Below, piece after piece: positions 7,592 through 33,795 of a DNA stretch of 34,556 bases. Below the pieces are notes generated by a model. It was not told where the DNA came from, ran no database searches, and was given only the letters and a program-made list of their open reading frames with translations. The DNA lies in IMG/VR virus record IMGVR_UViG_3300042691_021411, positions 1 to 34,556 of that record; one strand, written 5' to 3'. This DNA is from a virus. The translations under genes were made by a program, and so were the position numbers. The stretch's first letter is position 1, and the number at the start of each line of letters is the position of its first letter.

Positions 7592-9311
7592 TCCGAGTGA
7601 AATAAGAATAGTATTAGGTTCTCTTAGATACGCGTCTAATAACAACCAAGGTGTATGGGTACAACCACCACTATTTGGTAGTAATAGAGAATATGTTGAA
7701 GGTGATAGAACTATACTTGTGGATCAACAAGTCATATTTGATAATGAAAGACAGGCTAGTGATAAATTTAGAATTGCTGGAAAAATTGTTAATGTAATAA
7801 ATAATGAAGTTTCGGGTAAAACATCATATTCACCTTATAAAAATAATTTATATTACACTAACCCGATTAATAATGCGATTTCATCATTATCTAACCCATC
7901 GTATGCTTGGGAGGGGTACCCACAATTTAATGAATTTACGATAAGTAGAAATGAAGGAATACCTGGTCACATACCATTTGTAAATAAAAGCGCCTCTTCA
8001 TATAATTGGTCATTTTATATTACTTATGCGTTTTCAAGTACTACCGCACAGACTATGTCATACACTAATGAACAGTTTAACGTCACAAATAGTAACTTTG
8101 TTTGTGGTGATGGTGTACCATATGTATTAACAACAGGCACCCTTAATGGTAAAAGTTTAATTTATTTTTATTGTGGTACAAAACACAATTTAAATGTTGG
8201 AGAATCAATAGAATTATCAGTACCAATTAATAATCAAACAGTATTCACGGTATATTCTTTAGGTGATGGAGCATATAATTCAGAAGAAAATGTATTTACA
8301 ATTTATGATTTAAAATTTAACCCAAACGATGTTCAAACAGGAACATACGGAACATTAAAACGAATTTCAAACATAATAAATTCGGGGGAGACTAAATCAA
8401 TTTATTATGTAAGACTTCATAAAATAATAAAAACACCAAATGAGTGTAATATATCAAGAGCTGGTTTTGAAAATAACCCATTTTTTGTCAAGAAAAAAGT
8501 TGAGTATGCAGAGATAACCCCAAACCAAACAGAAAGATTATCAGTAAAAGATGGTACACAAACTTACTCATTTACATTTGATACCGATGTTTCTATTGCC
8601 GGATTAGTCGACAATAATGGAAAACCTATTACTGAATTATTTGTTACTGCGGTACAAAGAGGTTATATGGGTTGGTTTAATAAACCTTTTTTTAATCAAA
8701 ACACACAATTAACAGGTTTAGAGGTTGGTTGGGGTTTTAATTTCTTAAAAAATAGTATTGATAACTGGTGGGATAAAAACTCAGCAGTAAATAAAGATAA
8801 TATACCTGTTGGTTCTTATAATACAAACGGACAAACTTTTTATTATAACGAACACTTAAATGTAGGTGATGTGGTGAAAGGGGATTTCTGTGAATTTAAT
8901 TATTTAGAGCAGAAAGAATATGTTTTATCTAAAATGTATCATAAATATTCATTTAATGATTTATATTTCTCAGATAACTCAACACCTAATCTACCTTCAG
9001 GATATCTTTATGAACCACACACACCAATACAAATAAGAACTTTTAGTGATTATTTAGAATTTGGGTCAAAAGAATATACAGACAATGTACCTGGTTATGC
9101 TTGGTTCAGTGAATTTGAAGATACGTGGTATTGGAGAGATTTATATACTTATGGTTTTATTGATAATGACGGAATTGGAGTTGATTACCCATTTTTAAAT
9201 GGAGCCCATTACCCATTTAAAGACATTTTATTTTTACAATACCCAATACAAAGAGATAATAATGTTCAGGCGAATCTAATAAACAGAATAACAAATGACG
9301 ATTGTGAATAA
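7584..9311 (+). CDS. Virion structural protein, baseplate block, unrecognised
   Basis: A 575-residue protein whose ATG lies 8 nt inside the end of the preceding giant gene, suggesting translational coupling. It starts MSNPSEIRIVLGSLRYASNN and is rich in Asn, Tyr and aromatic residues, with no signal peptide or membrane segment. A region around 340-380 ('FVTAVQRGYMGWFNKPFF') and one around 480-530 ('HTPIQIRTFSDYLEFGSKE') stand out but match no family I can name. Its position after the gp25-like, gp6-like and giant genes corresponds to T4 gp8, but this is order-based inference only. It overlaps the following gene by 17 nt. Confidence 0.5.
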   Translation: MSNPSEIRIVLGSLRYASNNNQGVWVQPPLFGSNREYVEGDRTILVDQQVIFDNERQASDKFRIAGKIVNVINNEVSGKTSYSPYKNNLYYTNPINNAISSLSNPSYAWEGYPQFNEFTISRNEGIPGHIPFVNKSASSYNWSFYITYAFSSTTAQTMSYTNEQFNVTNSNFVCGDGVPYVLTTGTLNGKSLIYFYCGTKHNLNVGESIELSVPINNQTVFTVYSLGDGAYNSEENVFTIYDLKFNPNDVQTGTYGTLKRISNIINSGETKSIYYVRLHKIIKTPNECNISRAGFENNPFFVKKKVEYAEITPNQTERLSVKDGTQTYSFTFDTDVSIAGLVDNNGKPITELFVTAVQRGYMGWFNKPFFNQNTQLTGLEVGWGFNFLKNSIDNWWDKNSAVNKDNIPVGSYNTNGQTFYYNEHLNVGDVVKGDFCEFNYLEQKEYVLSKMYHKYSFNDLYFSDNSTPNLPSGYLYEPHTPIQIRTFSDYLEFGSKEYTDNVPGYAWFSEFEDTWYWRDLYTYGFIDNDGIGVDYPFLNGAHYPFKDILFLQYPIQRDNNVQANLINRITNDDCE

Positions 9312-27082: not shown

Positions 27083-27304
27083 ATGATTTGGAGATTAATT
27101 TATAACAACATAAACGTAGTACATTTGTTTGAAACTAATGATATTACTGTTACACCCCATCAAATTTTTGAAGGAAATACGCAAGAAGAGTGTTTTGATA
27201 AAATTGATGAATTAAAAATAACATATTACTACCCTTTAAATGAAAATGAAATATTATTATTCAGTGGAGGAACAAGAACGATAATAAATAAAGATGATAT
27301 TTGA
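27083..27304 (+). CDS. Small hypothetical protein (73 aa)
   Basis: A 73-residue protein. The start is taken at the ATG at 27083, 2 nt after the upstream stop, in preference to an in-frame TTG at 27062 that would overlap the previous gene by 19 nt. Sequence starts MIWRLIYNNINVVHLFETND and includes EGNTQEECFDKIDELKITY. No domain recognised, no signal peptide. Its stop overlaps the next gene's ATG (TGATG), so the two are probably translated together. It could be an accessory or assembly factor for the adjacent adhesin, but nothing in the sequence proves it. Confidence 0.5.
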   Translation: MIWRLIYNNINVVHLFETNDITVTPHQIFEGNTQEECFDKIDELKITYYYPLNENEILLFSGGTRTIINKDDI

Positions 27305-28905
27305 TGGGTTTATTAAGTGGAAATAGTTGCAATATAATAACAATCTTACCTATGGGTTTAGATTGTGATAGTATTGATGCATCAACACCAGAATCAACTA
27401 ATGGTTTTGTTGCATTATACATCACAGGAGGTACACCACCATATACGGTAACATGGGACAATGGACAACAAGGAACATTCCTCTCAAACTTATTACCTGG
27501 TGAATACACCGCAACTGTTGTTGATTATTATGGTGATTTTACTGCAACTACAACTTGTGTGGTCGGTTTTGAATCGTTTTATTTAGAAGAATTTGAAAAC
27601 TGTAAAGACTCATCAAAAGTTTATTATTTGGCCGATTTACCATCAACATTTGAAGTTGGTAAAATTTATGAATTAACTACACAGGCTGGTTGTTGGATAA
27701 GTAGTGGAATAACATTATATAACACACAAACATATATTAATAATTTTGCACAAGTAGAATCAGGTCCATATAATGGGTGTGAAGAATGTGATCCACCAAC
27801 ACCACCAATAGTTTACCCATCAAAATTATGTATAACATATGGTGACGGTAAAACTTTTGTTTCAATTGAGGCAAATTCAGGAAACACAATAAATGGTTAT
27901 CCGTCGTGGAGTGCGTCACCATCAAATCAAGTAATTTATTATAACACAGGCACAACAAGATGGGAAATATCAGGTTGGACCCAAAGCGGAGTTCCCGTAT
28001 TTAATAGCCCAACAGCACCCCCAGTTGGTTCATGGACAATTTTAGGTACATATTTTAAAACATTAACAATTATAGAAGGTGATTGTCCACCACCACCATT
28101 AAGTATGAGGATCTCAAACAATTCACCAACATGTTCAACAACAAACGACGGTAGTATTGTAGCATTTCCAATAGGAGGTACTCCACCATACACTTATTCC
28201 TTAGACGGAACAATCTATCAAATTAGTAACACATTTACAAATTTAATTGCAGGAACATATACACTATATGTGAAAGACTTTAATAATACTATATTATCGG
28301 AATCTACTGTATTGACACCGCAAGAAACATTTCAAAATTATACGATTAATTTAACACCAATATCACAAACAACAAACACTGTAAATACAACAGAAACAAG
28401 AACTTACACATTTAAAATTGAGGTAACACCGCAATTACCGGCAACAAAAACACTATCATTTGTTTTACCTATTAATATTTTAATTACTGGAAATACCACT
28501 ACAATATATTCACCAACAATACAAACCACACAAATAAGTTCTTTAACATTTTCAACAAATGGTACCGCAACTATGACAGGACCAAGTAGTACTAGTACAC
28601 CAATTACTAATAGTACCGCAAAACCATTACCATGTAGAAATACTAATATCAATACAAGTGCATACACCCAAAATTACCAAGGAACTATAACAGGTTCTGG
28701 AAATATTATTGGCACTCTTATTCAAGAGTTAAATACACCAACGGTAAGTTATGAAAAACATAGGTGTGGCTTAAATGCCGGTATTAAAAATGTAATTGGC
28801 ATAACCAATCAAAATTTAACACCATCAAGTTGTTCGTATTTAAATAGTGCAATACAACCTTTGACTTATGAATTTTATAAAACAGGAATAAGTGCAGATT
28901 CATAA
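27304..28905 (+). CDS. Modular tail adhesin with two SprB-type repeats
   Basis: A 533-residue protein. The start is taken at the ATG at 27304 in a TGATG overlap with the upstream stop, rather than an in-frame TTG one codon earlier. SprB-type repeats lie at about 38-85 (GGTPPYTVTWDNG... then LPGEYTATVVD) and 290-330 (GGTPPYTYSLDG... then LIAGTYTLYVKD). Between them are a Cys module at about 96-163 (NCKDSSKVYYLADLP to GCEECD) and a beta-rich module with RWEISGWTQSG at about 170-250. The C-terminal 180 residues are Thr/Ser-rich with a few Cys and match nothing known to me. It shares its module set with the 536-aa adhesin at 22710. Probable receptor-binding or fibre protein. Confidence 0.6.
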   Translation: MGLLSGNSCNIITILPMGLDCDSIDASTPESTNGFVALYITGGTPPYTVTWDNGQQGTFLSNLLPGEYTATVVDYYGDFTATTTCVVGFESFYLEEFENCKDSSKVYYLADLPSTFEVGKIYELTTQAGCWISSGITLYNTQTYINNFAQVESGPYNGCEECDPPTPPIVYPSKLCITYGDGKTFVSIEANSGNTINGYPSWSASPSNQVIYYNTGTTRWEISGWTQSGVPVFNSPTAPPVGSWTILGTYFKTLTIIEGDCPPPPLSMRISNNSPTCSTTNDGSIVAFPIGGTPPYTYSLDGTIYQISNTFTNLIAGTYTLYVKDFNNTILSESTVLTPQETFQNYTINLTPISQTTNTVNTTETRTYTFKIEVTPQLPATKTLSFVLPINILITGNTTTIYSPTIQTTQISSLTFSTNGTATMTGPSSTSTPITNSTAKPLPCRNTNINTSAYTQNYQGTITGSGNIIGTLIQELNTPTVSYEKHRCGLNAGIKNVIGITNQNLTPSSCSYLNSAIQPLTYEFYKTGISADS

Positions 28906-28919
28906 AATACCAATAATTA

Positions 28920-28927
28920 TATTTATA
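28920..28927 (+). promoter_or_regulatory. TATTTATA octamer, candidate late promoter element
   Basis: An exact copy in the 26-nt gap before the 735-aa gene, ending 4 nt before the ATG. Confidence 0.4.
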
Positions 28928-28931
28928 CTAT

Positions 28932-31139
28932 ATGTCTTACATAATTAAAAATACCGCAGCTTTAATAAACACTAAACTTACTGATGCAGCAAGAAAAAAA
29001 ATATCACAAGGCAGATTTGATATTTCTTATTTTCAAGTGGGTGATAGTGAAGTTTGTTATGATTGTGTAAATGGACTTAACTTAACAGATTTAAATGTTT
29101 TGATGCCACAGGATAATGGTCAAAATTTAGCACCGGCACCTGAAAAAAATAGGATGCATATAAAATATCCATTGTTTTTAGATTCAACATCTGGTGCAAC
29201 ATACGGTATACCATTTGATGCTTCTTATATTGATAATGTTTTTAATAGTGCTGCGCCAAGAGGATTTTTTAGTGGAGATAGTGTTTCAGGATTTACTCTA
29301 CTAACAACATCGGCATACACAATCAACCCGAATTTTTATGTGGACAATACAAGTCTTACATCAGGAACAACATTCACATTATCAGGAATAAGTATAAATC
29401 CAAGTGTTTCAGGAACAGTAAGTCCTGGAATGATATTAACAATTTTTAGTAGTAACTCAATAACACCTTTGAGTGGTGCTGCACCAATATACACATATGT
29501 TGTTGTTTCAGTAACAGGCGATTCATCAACAGCAACAACCATAACAATAGAAGTCGATAGAAACTTACCTAATTTCACAACATTAGGTTATACAGGTTCA
29601 AGTAGTGTTATGTTTTATCCATCAGGAATGACTGTACTTTATGATTCAATAACACCACAACCTTATTGGAATATAGATGCATTTAACTTTGAATCAAATT
29701 GTGATATTTCACAAACAGATGTAAAGGTTTGGAATATGAATAGTCCTTGGACTGAATCGCCGGCAGGAACATTAAATACAATTTATCAGGACTTTAATTA
29801 TTACCCATCTACAGGATATACGGGTACAAAAGAATATTTAGGGTATAAATCAGATGATGGGCAAAAAGATACTGATAGAGTTTATTACTATAATAGTTTT
29901 TCAGAAGAAATAACAGTTAAACCATCAGACCAAAAAGCAATTGCGATAGTACACTACACAAATCAAGCAATAGATAACTATTATGGAGAAAAGTTTGCAA
30001 TGCAAGACTATAACCCAAACAATCCTGGTAACACAGGACAAGCAAGGAATTTCAAACTTAGTATACCTTGGTTAATGTGGCATAAAAACCCAAATGGTAC
30101 AATTGGTGAGGATTTTTACACCGATCCATCAGGTTTTACATCGTTAAATCTTTTTGAGGTTCATTATATTAAAAGTAAAAAAGACATCCAATTTAACACG
30201 CCAGGTTTAAGATATTATCACCTTTGGGACACACACGCAAATACAAACGGGTACCCAAATAGAGTCGGTAAGGTGTTTCCTGACATGAAATTAATTGTTT
30301 TTGATGATGATGAAATTGTTGCAACACTTAATAGTAAATCAAATAGAAGTTGGACATTACCAGCACCAAAAGTAGGGTTAGTAACACCAAACACTTTTAG
30401 TGGTATTTTAGGTGGTGTACAAGGACTTTTAAGTGGTGACAGTGAAAGTTTATTTTTAACTTATAGATTAGATAGTACTGGTTTTACAAATTCACTTCAT
30501 TGTAATTATTACTCAAGAATTTCAGGAAACGATCAAAGTTTATTACCGGGAGCCTCAGATATAATTGTAAGATTTGGTAATGAGTTTCCGTTTTTAGTGT
30601 CAAACATAACAACAACACCATCAGGGTTTACGGCAAATAATTTTAAATTATTAGCTCAAAAAGTACCAAGTGGTACAACAAGACCATCCGTTACCCAATG
30701 GAGAGAAATTGACATGTTTAGTCAGATTTCAGCAACAACATTAAACGGTTATTTAACAATGGACAGTTTAACTGGTGTTACATATCAAATAACAAAAGAT
30801 TTATATGATAATGCACCTATCTATAATTTAAATGATTATATAAGTTTACCTGTTTTAAATCAGACCGGTCAAACATTTAACTTTGGTAGTGATTATTTCT
30901 TTTTTGGAAATATTCAAACAGATATCCAAGCAACAATTTATGTAATGAATTTCTTGGTTAATTTGGGTCAAACACAATTTTTTGATTCGGCAAACCCAAC
31001 GTGGAATAATACGGTTCCTCCATACATCACTGAAGTTGGACTTTACAATGCAGATAAAGAACTTATGGTTATTTCTAAGATACAGTCACCTCAAAAAAGA
31101 CAAGGTATACAACAGTATCCGATTAAATTAGATTTTTAA
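28932..31139 (+). CDS. Tail-collar-fibre-like virion protein
   Basis: A 735-residue protein. The N-terminus, ALINTKLTDAARKKISQGRF followed by ISYFQVGDSE (about 9-39), resembles the start of phage tail-collar fibre proteins (PF12571/DUF3751: a 'lT.aG...i.a....l....i.vGDG' pattern). The end, YITEVGLYNADKELMVISKI (about 698-717), resembles the 'REIGLfd.dG.LiAv' strand of the same family. The ~650 residues between are a very large insertion: a beta-rich Ser/Thr part (about 125-235) and a region with aromatic patches such as FKLSIPWLMWHKNPNG. No signal peptide or membrane helix. Likely joins fibres to the baseplate. The family call rests on the two short ends only. Confidence 0.5.
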   Translation: MSYIIKNTAALINTKLTDAARKKISQGRFDISYFQVGDSEVCYDCVNGLNLTDLNVLMPQDNGQNLAPAPEKNRMHIKYPLFLDSTSGATYGIPFDASYIDNVFNSAAPRGFFSGDSVSGFTLLTTSAYTINPNFYVDNTSLTSGTTFTLSGISINPSVSGTVSPGMILTIFSSNSITPLSGAAPIYTYVVVSVTGDSSTATTITIEVDRNLPNFTTLGYTGSSSVMFYPSGMTVLYDSITPQPYWNIDAFNFESNCDISQTDVKVWNMNSPWTESPAGTLNTIYQDFNYYPSTGYTGTKEYLGYKSDDGQKDTDRVYYYNSFSEEITVKPSDQKAIAIVHYTNQAIDNYYGEKFAMQDYNPNNPGNTGQARNFKLSIPWLMWHKNPNGTIGEDFYTDPSGFTSLNLFEVHYIKSKKDIQFNTPGLRYYHLWDTHANTNGYPNRVGKVFPDMKLIVFDDDEIVATLNSKSNRSWTLPAPKVGLVTPNTFSGILGGVQGLLSGDSESLFLTYRLDSTGFTNSLHCNYYSRISGNDQSLLPGASDIIVRFGNEFPFLVSNITTTPSGFTANNFKLLAQKVPSGTTRPSVTQWREIDMFSQISATTLNGYLTMDSLTGVTYQITKDLYDNAPIYNLNDYISLPVLNQTGQTFNFGSDYFFFGNIQTDIQATIYVMNFLVNLGQTQFFDSANPTWNNTVPPYITEVGLYNADKELMVISKIQSPQKRQGIQQYPIKLDF

Positions 31140-31144
31140 ATTTT

Positions 31145-31747
31145 ATGAACAAAACAGATCTTAAAAACTCACCTAAAGTGTTGGGTTTAGATATTTCAAC
31201 CAAAACAATTGGATGGAGTTTATTTGACATTAGAACTCAAGAACTTTTAGAACTAACACATTTTTCACCTGTTATAAAACCAAAACCAGAAGATAAAATT
31301 GAAGAACTTATTTTAAAAGTGAGGGCTTTTGAAGAAAAGTTAGAGGGATATAGAAATTTAGGAATAACAAAAGTAATAATTGAAGAGCCATTACTTAATT
31401 CAAATAACATATGGACAGTAGGTACTTTATTAAGGTACAATTCAATGATTACAAAATCAATATATGATATTTTAGATATTGTACCTTCATTTATTTCGAC
31501 ATATAATTCAAGAAAATTTGCATGGCCAGACTTTGTGCAACAAAACGATAAAGGAAAACACGTTTTATTTGGAGGACTACCAAAAGACATTGATAAAAAA
31601 GAATTAATTTGGAAAAAAGTTTCAGATAAAGAACCACAAATTACTTGGTTGTATACAAAAAATAATACACTTAAAAAAGAATGTTTTGATATGGCAGATT
31701 CATATACTTGTGTTTTAGGTTATATGAAACAAGAAAAAATTTGGTAA
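31145..31747 (+). CDS. RuvC-like Holliday junction resolvase
   Basis: A 200-residue RNase H-fold nuclease. Catalytic residues are visible at D16 (VLGLDIST), E80/E81 (VIIEEP), D182 and D185 (FDMADSYT). The last pair has the same D-x-x-D spacing as E. coli RuvC D138/D141. Length is slightly above bacterial RuvC (about 173 aa). The enzyme would cut four-way DNA junctions. It starts 5 nt after the last structural gene with no promoter element between, so it is probably expressed with late genes. That fits a role in debranching replicating DNA before packaging, as T4 gp49 does (a different fold). The ~20-residue lysine-rich stretch around KGKHVLFGGLPKDIDKKE is not part of the core fold I can assign. 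Confidence 0.8.
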   Translation: MNKTDLKNSPKVLGLDISTKTIGWSLFDIRTQELLELTHFSPVIKPKPEDKIEELILKVRAFEEKLEGYRNLGITKVIIEEPLLNSNNIWTVGTLLRYNSMITKSIYDILDIVPSFISTYNSRKFAWPDFVQQNDKGKHVLFGGLPKDIDKKELIWKKVSDKEPQITWLYTKNNTLKKECFDMADSYTCVLGYMKQEKIW

Positions 31748-31772
31748 TGTAAGTTTTTTTTTATTATTGATA

Positions 31773-31780
31773 TATTTATA
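31773..31780 (+). promoter_or_regulatory. TATTTATA octamer, candidate late promoter element
   Basis: An exact copy in the 60-nt gap before the 132-aa tagged-protein gene, ending 27 nt before its ATG. It is the last exact copy in the window; the primase region lacks it. Confidence 0.45.
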
Positions 31781-31807
31781 TGTAAATAATAAAAAATAAT
31801 TAACATT

Positions 31808-32206
31808 ATGAAAAATATACTATCAGAAATTACAGAACAAGAGAAGAATAGAATTCTTGAAATGCATAGAAAATCAACAAGTAGATTTTATTTAAATGAA
31901 CAAAATTCGTTTAATATAAATCAAACATCAGGTTCTGGTAAGGGCGCTACATTAGAAATAACCACAATGTTTAAAAATATCGGTCTAGGAGATACACATA
32001 CAAATCAAGTCTCAAAACAATATGCTGAAGAATTAAAGATTAAACCTGAATTAAAAAAAGATAAAATAGATACATTGATGACATTGTTAAACGATCTCAT
32101 AAAAAAAGAAAATGAAACTAGGGATCAAAAAGATAAAATTTCTAATTATGACATTAATGCTAATTTAAAACCAGCAGCAGAAGCTTTAATTGATAATTTT
32201 TCATAA
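31808..32206 (+). CDS. Small protein with N-terminal 'TE...RI...LNEQ' tag (132 aa)
   Basis: A 132-residue hydrophilic, Lys/Glu-rich protein. The first ~32 residues (MKNILSEITEQEKNRILEMH, ending YLNEQ) are an amphipathic helical leader that closely parallels the leader of the next gene (both T-E-x-x-x-x-R-I ... (L/I)-N-E-Q). The rest is a small, probably helical body (about 50-130) with no family match. (L/I)-x-E sites are what T4-type prohead proteases cut, so this may be a capsid-directed internal protein; this is inference. A TATTTATA element precedes it, suggesting late expression. No signal peptide or membrane helix. Confidence 0.5.
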   Translation: MKNILSEITEQEKNRILEMHRKSTSRFYLNEQNSFNINQTSGSGKGATLEITTMFKNIGLGDTHTNQVSKQYAEELKIKPELKKDKIDTLMTLLNDLIKKENETRDQKDKISNYDINANLKPAAEALIDNFS

Positions 32207-32288
32207 TTTTTTATTATTAAAAAAACACCACAACCAACCGCAAAAAACTAATATTATACAATAAAATACTATAGATAATTTTAAAAAA

Positions 32289-32804
32289 ATGAAAAGAATT
32301 ATAAGACTTACAGAATCAGATCTTGCAAGAATCGTAAGAAGAGTTATAAATGAACAAAAAATTAACCCTATTGCAGGTTTACCACAATTAACTGACTTAT
32401 ATAATGAAATTTTAGCAGAATTTATAAAAATTGTCCAACCAAAAATAAATTCAATTTTAGGTACTGATCAATTTATTTTAAAACCAATGAATGATGGAAC
32501 ACAAATATGGTTTAAAGTTGAAAATAAAAAAAATGTTTTTAAAAATAGAAATACTGCTCAGACAGAAGATAAATTTAAAATAGGTGATGCTACAAATGCG
32601 GTTTCAAATGTGACTAAATTTTTTAAATGGTTAGAAAATCAAGATGTTTATATTGAGAGCATAATAAAAGATACTGATAAATTGTTTCTTGGTAAGACAA
32701 GAAAATTAGAAGATTTTTGGTTACAAGATGATTGGTCTAACGCAGTAGACCAAGTAATGGGAAAAGGATATTTTGATAAGTCCTTTAGTTACCAAGAGAA
32801 ATAA
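32289..32804 (+). CDS. Small protein with N-terminal 'TE...RI...INEQ' tag (171 aa)
   Basis: A 171-residue protein opening MKRIIRLTESDLARIVRRVI followed by NEQ. This basic amphipathic leader matches that of the gene at 31808. The body (about 30-171) looks globular alpha/beta (GTDQFILKPMNDGTQIWFKV, later NAVDQVMGKGYFDKSF) and is not recognised. Start context is AAAAAAATG with no Shine-Dalgarno and, unlike most neighbours, no TATTTATA in the 82-nt gap upstream. It is followed by an intrinsic terminator. The leader would be removed if a prohead protease cut after INE. A packaged or injected protein is possible but unproven. Confidence 0.5.
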   Translation: MKRIIRLTESDLARIVRRVINEQKINPIAGLPQLTDLYNEILAEFIKIVQPKINSILGTDQFILKPMNDGTQIWFKVENKKNVFKNRNTAQTEDKFKIGDATNAVSNVTKFFKWLENQDVYIESIIKDTDKLFLGKTRKLEDFWLQDDWSNAVDQVMGKGYFDKSFSYQEK

Positions 32805-32810
32805 TACTAG

Positions 32811-32835
32811 CCCACCCCAAAAAGGTGGGTTTTTT
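32811..32835 (+). terminator. Intrinsic terminator
   Basis: CCCACC (32811-32816) pairs with GGTGGG (32824-32829) across a CCAAAAA loop and is followed by six T (32830-32835). It closes the transcription unit ending with the 171-aa tagged protein and separates it from the primase gene. Confidence 0.85.
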
Positions 32836-32874
32836 GTTGTTTGACTATTCCTCCTTATTTCTTATCTTTTATGT

Positions 32875-33795
32875 ATGAAAGAAGAGTCACTATTAGTTGA
32901 CCTTATTGAGAATATTTTTGGTGAACCTAAAAACGTAAATGAATATAGTGGTCAAATATCCGTTGACTGTCCCGTTTGTTCCTATGAGATAAAAGGTTTA
33001 TCAAAAACCGATGGTAAGGGAAATTTAGAAATAAATTATTTTAATCACATTTATAAATGTTGGAGCTGTTCTGAAACACACGACACTCACGGACATTTAG
33101 GTAGGTTAATTGAGCAATTTGGATCAAAAAAAGATAAAAAAACATATAATCTCATAAGACCCGATAAGTTAGAAAAAAAACAAAAAGAATATAAAAAACT
33201 TGAACTACCAAAAGAATATAAAAGGTTTGAAGAAATACATCCTTTACATTTACCAAGAAAAGAAGCTTGGAACTACCTTAAAAAAAGAGGTATAACACAA
33301 GAAACAATAGATAAGTATAAAATTGGTATTTGTATTGAAGGTGAATACGCTGGTCGAATTATTGTCCCATCATTTAATAAAAAAGGCGAATTAAACTTTT
33401 TTGTCTCAAGATCATGGAACCCAAGAGCAAAACTAAAATACAAAAATCCTGAAGCGGCTAAGGACTTTCTTATTTTTAATGAGAGTTTGATTGATTGGAA
33501 AAAAGACATTTATTTAGTTGAAGGTGTTTTTGATTCATTCTTTTTAGACAATTCAATTGCGTTACTTGGAAAGTACGTGAATGATAACTTATGGGAAAAA
33601 TTATACGAAAAGGCAAAGAAAGACATTATTGTTTGTCTTGATGGAGACGCTTTCACCGACGCAAAAAACATATACGACAAACTTAATGGAGGTACCTTAT
33701 ACGGTAGAATAAAACTTATGAAACTACCAAAAGATAAAGACGTTTGTGACCTTAGAGGTCAAATAAACGAATACATGATACAAGAAAAAGAATGA
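32875..33795 (+). CDS. DnaG-type DNA primase (zinc finger + TOPRIM)
   Basis: A 306-residue primase that makes RNA primers for lagging-strand replication. The N-terminal zinc ribbon uses C32-x-x-C35 and C62-x-x-C65 (CPVCSY, CWSCSE), followed by THGHLGRLIEQFG. The linker is highly charged (about 84-125). A DnaG-like core has KKRGITQETIDKYKIGI (136-152) and GRIIVPSFN. The TOPRIM site shows E216 (YLVEGVFDS) and D256-G-D258 (CLDGDA). Length is close to T4 gp61 (342 aa), and no helicase domain is fused. An out-of-frame ATG four bases upstream is ignored. The stop overlaps the nuclease start (ATGA), so the two are coupled. It follows a terminator and lacks TATTTATA, fitting an earlier expression class than the structural genes. 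Confidence 0.8.
   Translation: MKEESLLVDLIENIFGEPKNVNEYSGQISVDCPVCSYEIKGLSKTDGKGNLEINYFNHIYKCWSCSETHDTHGHLGRLIEQFGSKKDKKTYNLIRPDKLEKKQKEYKKLELPKEYKRFEEIHPLHLPRKEAWNYLKKRGITQETIDKYKIGICIEGEYAGRIIVPSFNKKGELNFFVSRSWNPRAKLKYKNPEAAKDFLIFNESLIDWKKDIYLVEGVFDSFFLDNSIALLGKYVNDNLWEKLYEKAKKDIIVCLDGDAFTDAKNIYDKLNGGTLYGRIKLMKLPKDKDVCDLRGQINEYMIQEKE

Follow-up and report, generated by a model that had tools for sequence, protein, structure and literature searches.

The two small proteins encoded between a RuvC-like gene and a primase gene of an uncultured virus begin with leaders that we interpret, with a probability of about 0.84, as capsid-targeting propeptides cut by the phage prohead protease. The window, i.e., the whole stretch of DNA analysed, is a linear virus record of 34,556 bp that is probably a fragment. 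We directly observed the leaders, their common end, the exchange of leaders between bodies, a T4-type head module with a matching capsid site, a cargo hotspot and an upstream element. By analogy with known systems, it is probable that these phages package many tagged proteins in the head and deliver them to bacteria by injection; none of packaging, cleavage and injection was observed. A preliminary description of this DNA had proposed capsid-targeting leaders, and this interpretation is supported by the recurrence of the tag, the gp21-type protease, the match to the capsid site, the leader exchange at the cut and the hotspot.

The left part of the window contains T4-like baseplate genes (gp25 and gp6 types) and long repetitive tail proteins. 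The genes of interest follow the order RuvC-like, ORF 1, ORF 2, primase, exonuclease. The RuvC-like gene (31145-31747, forward strand; phrog_159, 3.8e-05) and the DNA primase gene (32875-33795, forward; phrog_47, 2.7e-37) flank the hotspot on the left and right. ORF 1 (31808-32206, forward; 132 residues) consists of a type-B leader, MKNILSEITEQEKNRILEMHRKSTSRFYLNE then Q (31808-31900, forward), with a predicted cut after E31 (codon 31898-31900), and a 101-residue body. ORF 2 (32289-32804, forward; 171 residues) consists of a type-A leader, MKRIIRLTESDLARIVRRVINE then Q (32289-32354, forward), with a predicted cut after E22 (codon 32352-32354), and a 149-residue body. The preliminary description had reported two adjacent small proteins with matching N-terminal tags ending in LNE/Q and INE/Q. 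Both ORFs were recovered with these ends at E31 and E22, they share MK...(I/L)TE-xxxx-RI, and their remainders are unrelated (no BLASTP match between the two bodies at E<=10). The ORF 1 leader has 31 residues and that of ORF 2 has 22, a difference that the elastic motif of that description permits. Neither body has a Pfam or PHROG match, and no relatives of the ORF 1 body are known. A single-sequence structure prediction of ORF 2 reached a mean pLDDT of 52; the helix that it places at residues 9-23, with a loop after it, is no more than suggestive. Just after ORF 2, at 32810-32835, an inverted repeat followed by a T run (CCCACCCCAAAAAGGTGGGTTTTTTG) resembles, by eye, an intrinsic terminator.

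The tags are widespread. Pattern scans of IMG/VR found RLTESDLxRI in at least 120 stretches and EKxRILxMH in at least 119, far above chance given that the DNA pattern of the ORF 2 leader is expected only 0.01 times in the window. We collected at least 307 distinct tagged ORFs, and 74 distinct type-B ORFs with the layout of ORF 1 are among the matches listed. The type-A consensus is M(K)(K/R)(I/V)(I/V)RLTESDLxRIV(K/R)RVIxE, and gut-type loci have a longer sister form (RLTESDLHRIVKESVxRILxE). The type-B consensus is MK..(I/L)(S/T)EEEKNRILEMHxxATKRxYLxE followed by Q, and a shorter variant ends in KKNVISE, then Q. Both types have (L/I)(S/T)E(S/E)(D/E)xxRI(V/L) in common. The expected recurrence within genomes was confirmed by a genome-wide leader search: all 20 leader-yielding records carry the type-A tag, in 2-27 copies each, and three near relatives of the window that contain the head module encode 8, 9 and 15 type-A tagged ORFs. 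None of 14 random contigs larger than 50 kb contains a type-A leader. Searches of named phages by tblastn with the leaders alone gave nothing useful, as expected for queries of 23-32 residues, and the leader strings do not occur in the open-access papers searched.

Conservation in the leaders stops at their end. Type-A leaders finish in (I/L/V)-(N/K/S/R)-E, followed by Q, S, N or G, type-B leaders in (L/I)-x-E, followed by Q, and the commonest leader end is VINE. Counting one member per unrelated body family, (ILVMFT)xE stands at the canonical position in 161 of the 167 type-A families among the matches listed (at +16 in 128 and at +20 in 33), when about 2% would be expected by composition. 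The six other families among these matches lack the motif at both positions and count against the cleavage reading. In a set of 203 type-A entries pre-selected for having E, 176 have I or L as the P3 residue. Column information reaches 2.76 bits at the final E, then falls to 1.09, 0.42 and thereafter about 0.1. The C-terminal half of the leader (type-A residues 11-21) is strongly amphipathic when modelled as a helix (mean moment 0.91 versus 0.42 in shuffled sequences, 147 leaders) and basic (median pI 10.0), as would suit a docking or dimerisation helix that is retained on the protein and never cut, its partner being a phage compartment, the membrane or the RNA polymerase. We consider such a helix improbable, since it leaves unexplained the sharp stop in conservation after E, the x-E fixed in two leader types with different middles, and the recombination junctions at the E residue described below.

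Cleavage would require a suitable protease. A gp21-type protease (PF03420, above the curated cut-off) is encoded in 15 of 20 large tagged records and in 4 of 14 random contigs larger than 50 kb, a contrast that is only indicative because the random contigs are smaller on average. The protease gene anticipated by the preliminary description was thus present in these 15 records and in three near relatives of the window; it was not seen in the window itself. No head gene at all was seen in this 34.6-kb fragment, head genes being present in relatives, and most of the nearest relatives are likewise fragments without a detected protease gene, which counts against the cleavage reading. The conserved head module consists of the protease, a terminase, a Gp20 portal (3.3e-72), a scaffold-like protein and a Gp23 capsid protein (4.6e-73), the scaffold being called from position and composition without a profile match. 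The propeptide of the gp23-type capsid protein ends mostly in HLINE or FLINE, then A (LISE, LIYE or LLTE in a few cases). Its P3-P1 residues in LINE are therefore identical to those of the commonest leader end, VINE, and the suggestion that the leaders carry a prohead protease site is indirectly supported by this common I-N-E. The three near relatives (primase 80-86% identical) have the full head module and a capsid end of SHLINE, then A. In L569, one of the three, the head cluster itself includes a tagged ORF (8884-9180), placed between the genes for protease and scaffold.

Several other features of the head genes were recorded. In the 335-kb record G002, the prohead protease (L154 7440-8594) has an intein-like insertion of about 145 residues (CYKPDALILTETGWKTLEEV...TSN, then YCNHP), as judged from the alignment. 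Some portal genes are far longer than the usual 600 aa, with 925-1340 aa (L151 10401, L152 2974, L570 3258), possibly through an insertion such as an intein. Conserved proteins encoded downstream of the capsid gene have short leaders, such as MKNLDRLIKQVLRE then D and MIERTIKNILKE then A (family F10, L147 14265-14732 and relatives; family F9, L571 3230-3949), and thereby suggest that the tag has a minimal form of 12-14 residues. When a profile of the second half of the leader was used, the scaffold protein was not singled out, which leaves the binding partner unidentified. We do not claim that the leader mimics the scaffold N-terminus (e.g., LVKESLNEQ), since the scaffold did not rank in that search.

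Leaders are exchanged between bodies. Thirteen body clusters among the matches listed (10 in an earlier, stricter set) occur with both leader types. A relative of the ORF 2 body, 93% identical, occurs in the sister contig IMGVR_UViG_3300008267_000224, where it stands behind a type-B leader. The blastn comparison of this contig with the window gives matching blocks at 27296-31899 and 32371-33773, and the block 31900-32370 of the window is absent from the sister contig. On the left, the junction coincides exactly with the predicted cut of ORF 1, within the codon for E31; on the right, it falls five residues past the predicted cut of ORF 2. The block almost matches the region singled out originally (31808-32370). 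Across relatives, we found 26 distinct RuvC-primase intervals. Five of them are empty, at 35-84 bp, and each of the 18 forward ORFs found in the others is tagged. These ORFs represent 12 body clusters, and 2 of the clusters occur with both leader types. A more distant group has genes on the reverse strand at this site instead. The RuvC-primase locus is thus a cargo hotspot, the place where cargo swaps at the predicted cleavage site. In several relatives it also contains, beside the tagged genes, a small protein resembling an HNH-type endonuclease, with paired CxxC motifs (MCKVCIICKIEKPLTEFHKHKRRKDGYREQCK; L518 3436-3723, L540 3451-3972, L542 3449-3970, L564 3449-3970), which may drive the cargo exchange. 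With leader exchange and block insertion so common, the shared 5' ends might be mere DNA cassettes spread by recombination, without a function of the protein. We give this very little credence: wherever leaders have an identical residue, different codons are used in 39% of comparisons, and codon position 3 shows the lowest identity, so conservation acts on the leader protein rather than on the DNA, and selection keeps its sequence.

An element upstream of ORF 1, TATTTATA (31773-31780, forward), lies 35 bp before the gene and is common to the head genes of relatives, which makes it a candidate late promoter. Of 238 tagged ORFs, 159 (67%) have TATTTAT no more than 60 bp before the start, compared with 600 of 1868 other ORFs (32%); the usual distance is about 20-25 bp. 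The element precedes 14 of 15 protease genes and 15 of 15 scaffold genes, and is wholly absent upstream of several other gene families in these loci. Within the window, ORF 1 and several tail genes have it; the primase and exonuclease genes do not. We infer that this element is a late promoter. Its presence before a third of the other ORFs fits a general late class and also counts against our reading of the leaders.

The proteins behind the leaders are diverse. The tagged ORFs, at least 307, fall into about 205 unrelated body clusters among the matches listed, with a median body length of 127 residues. When 148 family representatives were compared with Pfam, 9 families matched, once each; the matches include NUDIX, LysM, SLT, PG_binding_1, OmpA and some DUFs. 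PADLOC matches among the cargo are weak except one (PDC-S07, 1e-11), and we do not claim a defence function. One tagged protein is a NUDIX hydrolase (L004 7207-7971); in T4, the nudE gene is close to ipIII. The peptidoglycan-binding, LysM and SLT domains, the position of the hotspot next to a tail gene block and the TATTTAT elements before tail genes of the window would all suit leaders that deliver proteins elsewhere in the particle, for instance to the tail tube or baseplate, in the manner of the N-terminal signals of contractile injection systems, the (I/L/V)xE end then being incidental. That destination seems quite improbable to us: a tail signal needs no prohead-protease site, yet the leader end equals the capsid propeptide site and is kept in 161 of 167 families among the matches listed, and one tagged gene lies inside the head cluster.

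Delivery to the capsid has a precedent in T4, where gp21 cuts after L/I-x-E, targeting leaders have 10-19 residues, and the leaders of internal proteins bind the core until their removal frees the body (PMC9026906). The T4 internal proteins IpI-III have only the leader in common, and the type IV restriction enzymes that they inhibit differ from one protein to the next (PMC12373910). The tagged proteins described here likewise combine a short N-terminal leader, with an L/I-x-E type end, with unrelated small bodies, and there are several tagged genes per genome, in variable loci, along with a T4-type protease and capsid. Three tests for a T4-type capsid targeting sequence are met: one N-terminal leader on unrelated bodies, leaders ending in L/I-x-E (with V, M, F and T also allowed), and a gp21-type protease co-encoded with a gp23-type capsid protein in tagged records and near relatives. 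The homology test is not met, as leader profiles do not match the N-termini of T4 IpI-III; the tag may work like a T4 capsid targeting sequence and is not classed as homologous. The systems also differ in scale. T4 has three such proteins, and its leader sequence reads MKTYQEFIAE, whereas the leaders here have 22-31 residues and come in two interchangeable types, with 2-27 type-A copies per genome and at least about 205 body families. Our results fit T4-like capsid targeting with unrelated sequences and on a far larger scale, with binding, cleavage and packaging inferred by analogy.

Other phages offer partial parallels. The ejection proteins of phiKZ-like phages and of SPN3US, which are large phages too, undergo processing by the prohead protease; they have N-terminal propeptides cut after x-E, and include paralogues with identical N-termini, which we count as a likeness; the SPN3US proteins are cut at A-x-E and most of their propeptides exceed 100 residues, unlike the short leaders on unrelated proteins found here (PMC5694885). 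In P1, the N-terminal 30 residues of DarB are enough to send a foreign protein into the capsid, but this concerns one large defence protein in an HK97-like head pathway, with no tag shared by multiple proteins (PMC9024508). We also searched the whole records of four relatives with profiles. None of the nearest cultured relatives (Flavobacterium phage immuto, Microcystis phage Mel-JY01 and Rhodothermus phage RM378) matches the type-A leader profile, although all three have a T4-type capsid; this counts against the capsid reading. The capsid site is QIVSE then A in immuto and QLISE then A in Mel-JY01.

If the leaders are capsid-targeting propeptides, the tagged proteins would be made late in infection, together with the head proteins, and the short amphipathic leader would bring each of them into the prohead core, a binding step that we infer. 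The gp21-type protease would then take off the leader by a cut after (I/L/V)-x-E and leave the body in the head; cleavage and presence in virions are both inferences. The bodies would enter the next host along with the DNA, although injection is likewise only inferred, and could serve in counter-defence or take-over, a presumed role given that effector function has been shown for none of them. Beyond some model phages, few injected proteins have been described. A readable tag would turn metagenomes into a catalogue of probable injected proteins, with at least about 205 families, would make the content injected by these phages directly testable, and would supply short, exchangeable delivery signals.

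The tags also have 17 matches in bacterial genomes, nearly all of them Prevotella or other Bacteroidales and mostly with gut-type leaders; two of these are evidently phage contigs binned with bacteria. From these bacterial bins and the nearest cultured relatives, we infer that the hosts of the window's own freshwater group are Bacteroidota. In several Prevotella-type chromosomes and in the phage contig L119, a tagged ORF of the gut class (HRIVKES) abuts a convergent transposase, which we take to be IS1595-like, or overlaps it by a few bases. On the Prevotella chromosomes these tagged ORFs have no head genes in view, which counts against the capsid reading, and a simple scan found no terminal inverted repeats around the pair. 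The transposon and the tagged cargo seem to travel together. We put forward only as a speculation, more likely wrong than right, the broader picture in which two interchangeable, sequence-unrelated capsid tags allow uncultured T4-type phages, which probably infect Bacteroidota, to deliver hundreds of unknown effector families, some of whose members move with IS1595-like transposons between phage and host chromosomes; if true, a transposon-borne protein may be built for riding in phage heads. The pairs of tagged ORF and transposase lie at L477 6571-7898, L479 1342-2747, L480 3454-5022, L485 1278-2675 and L490 128-1527, and at 6973-8495 in L119.
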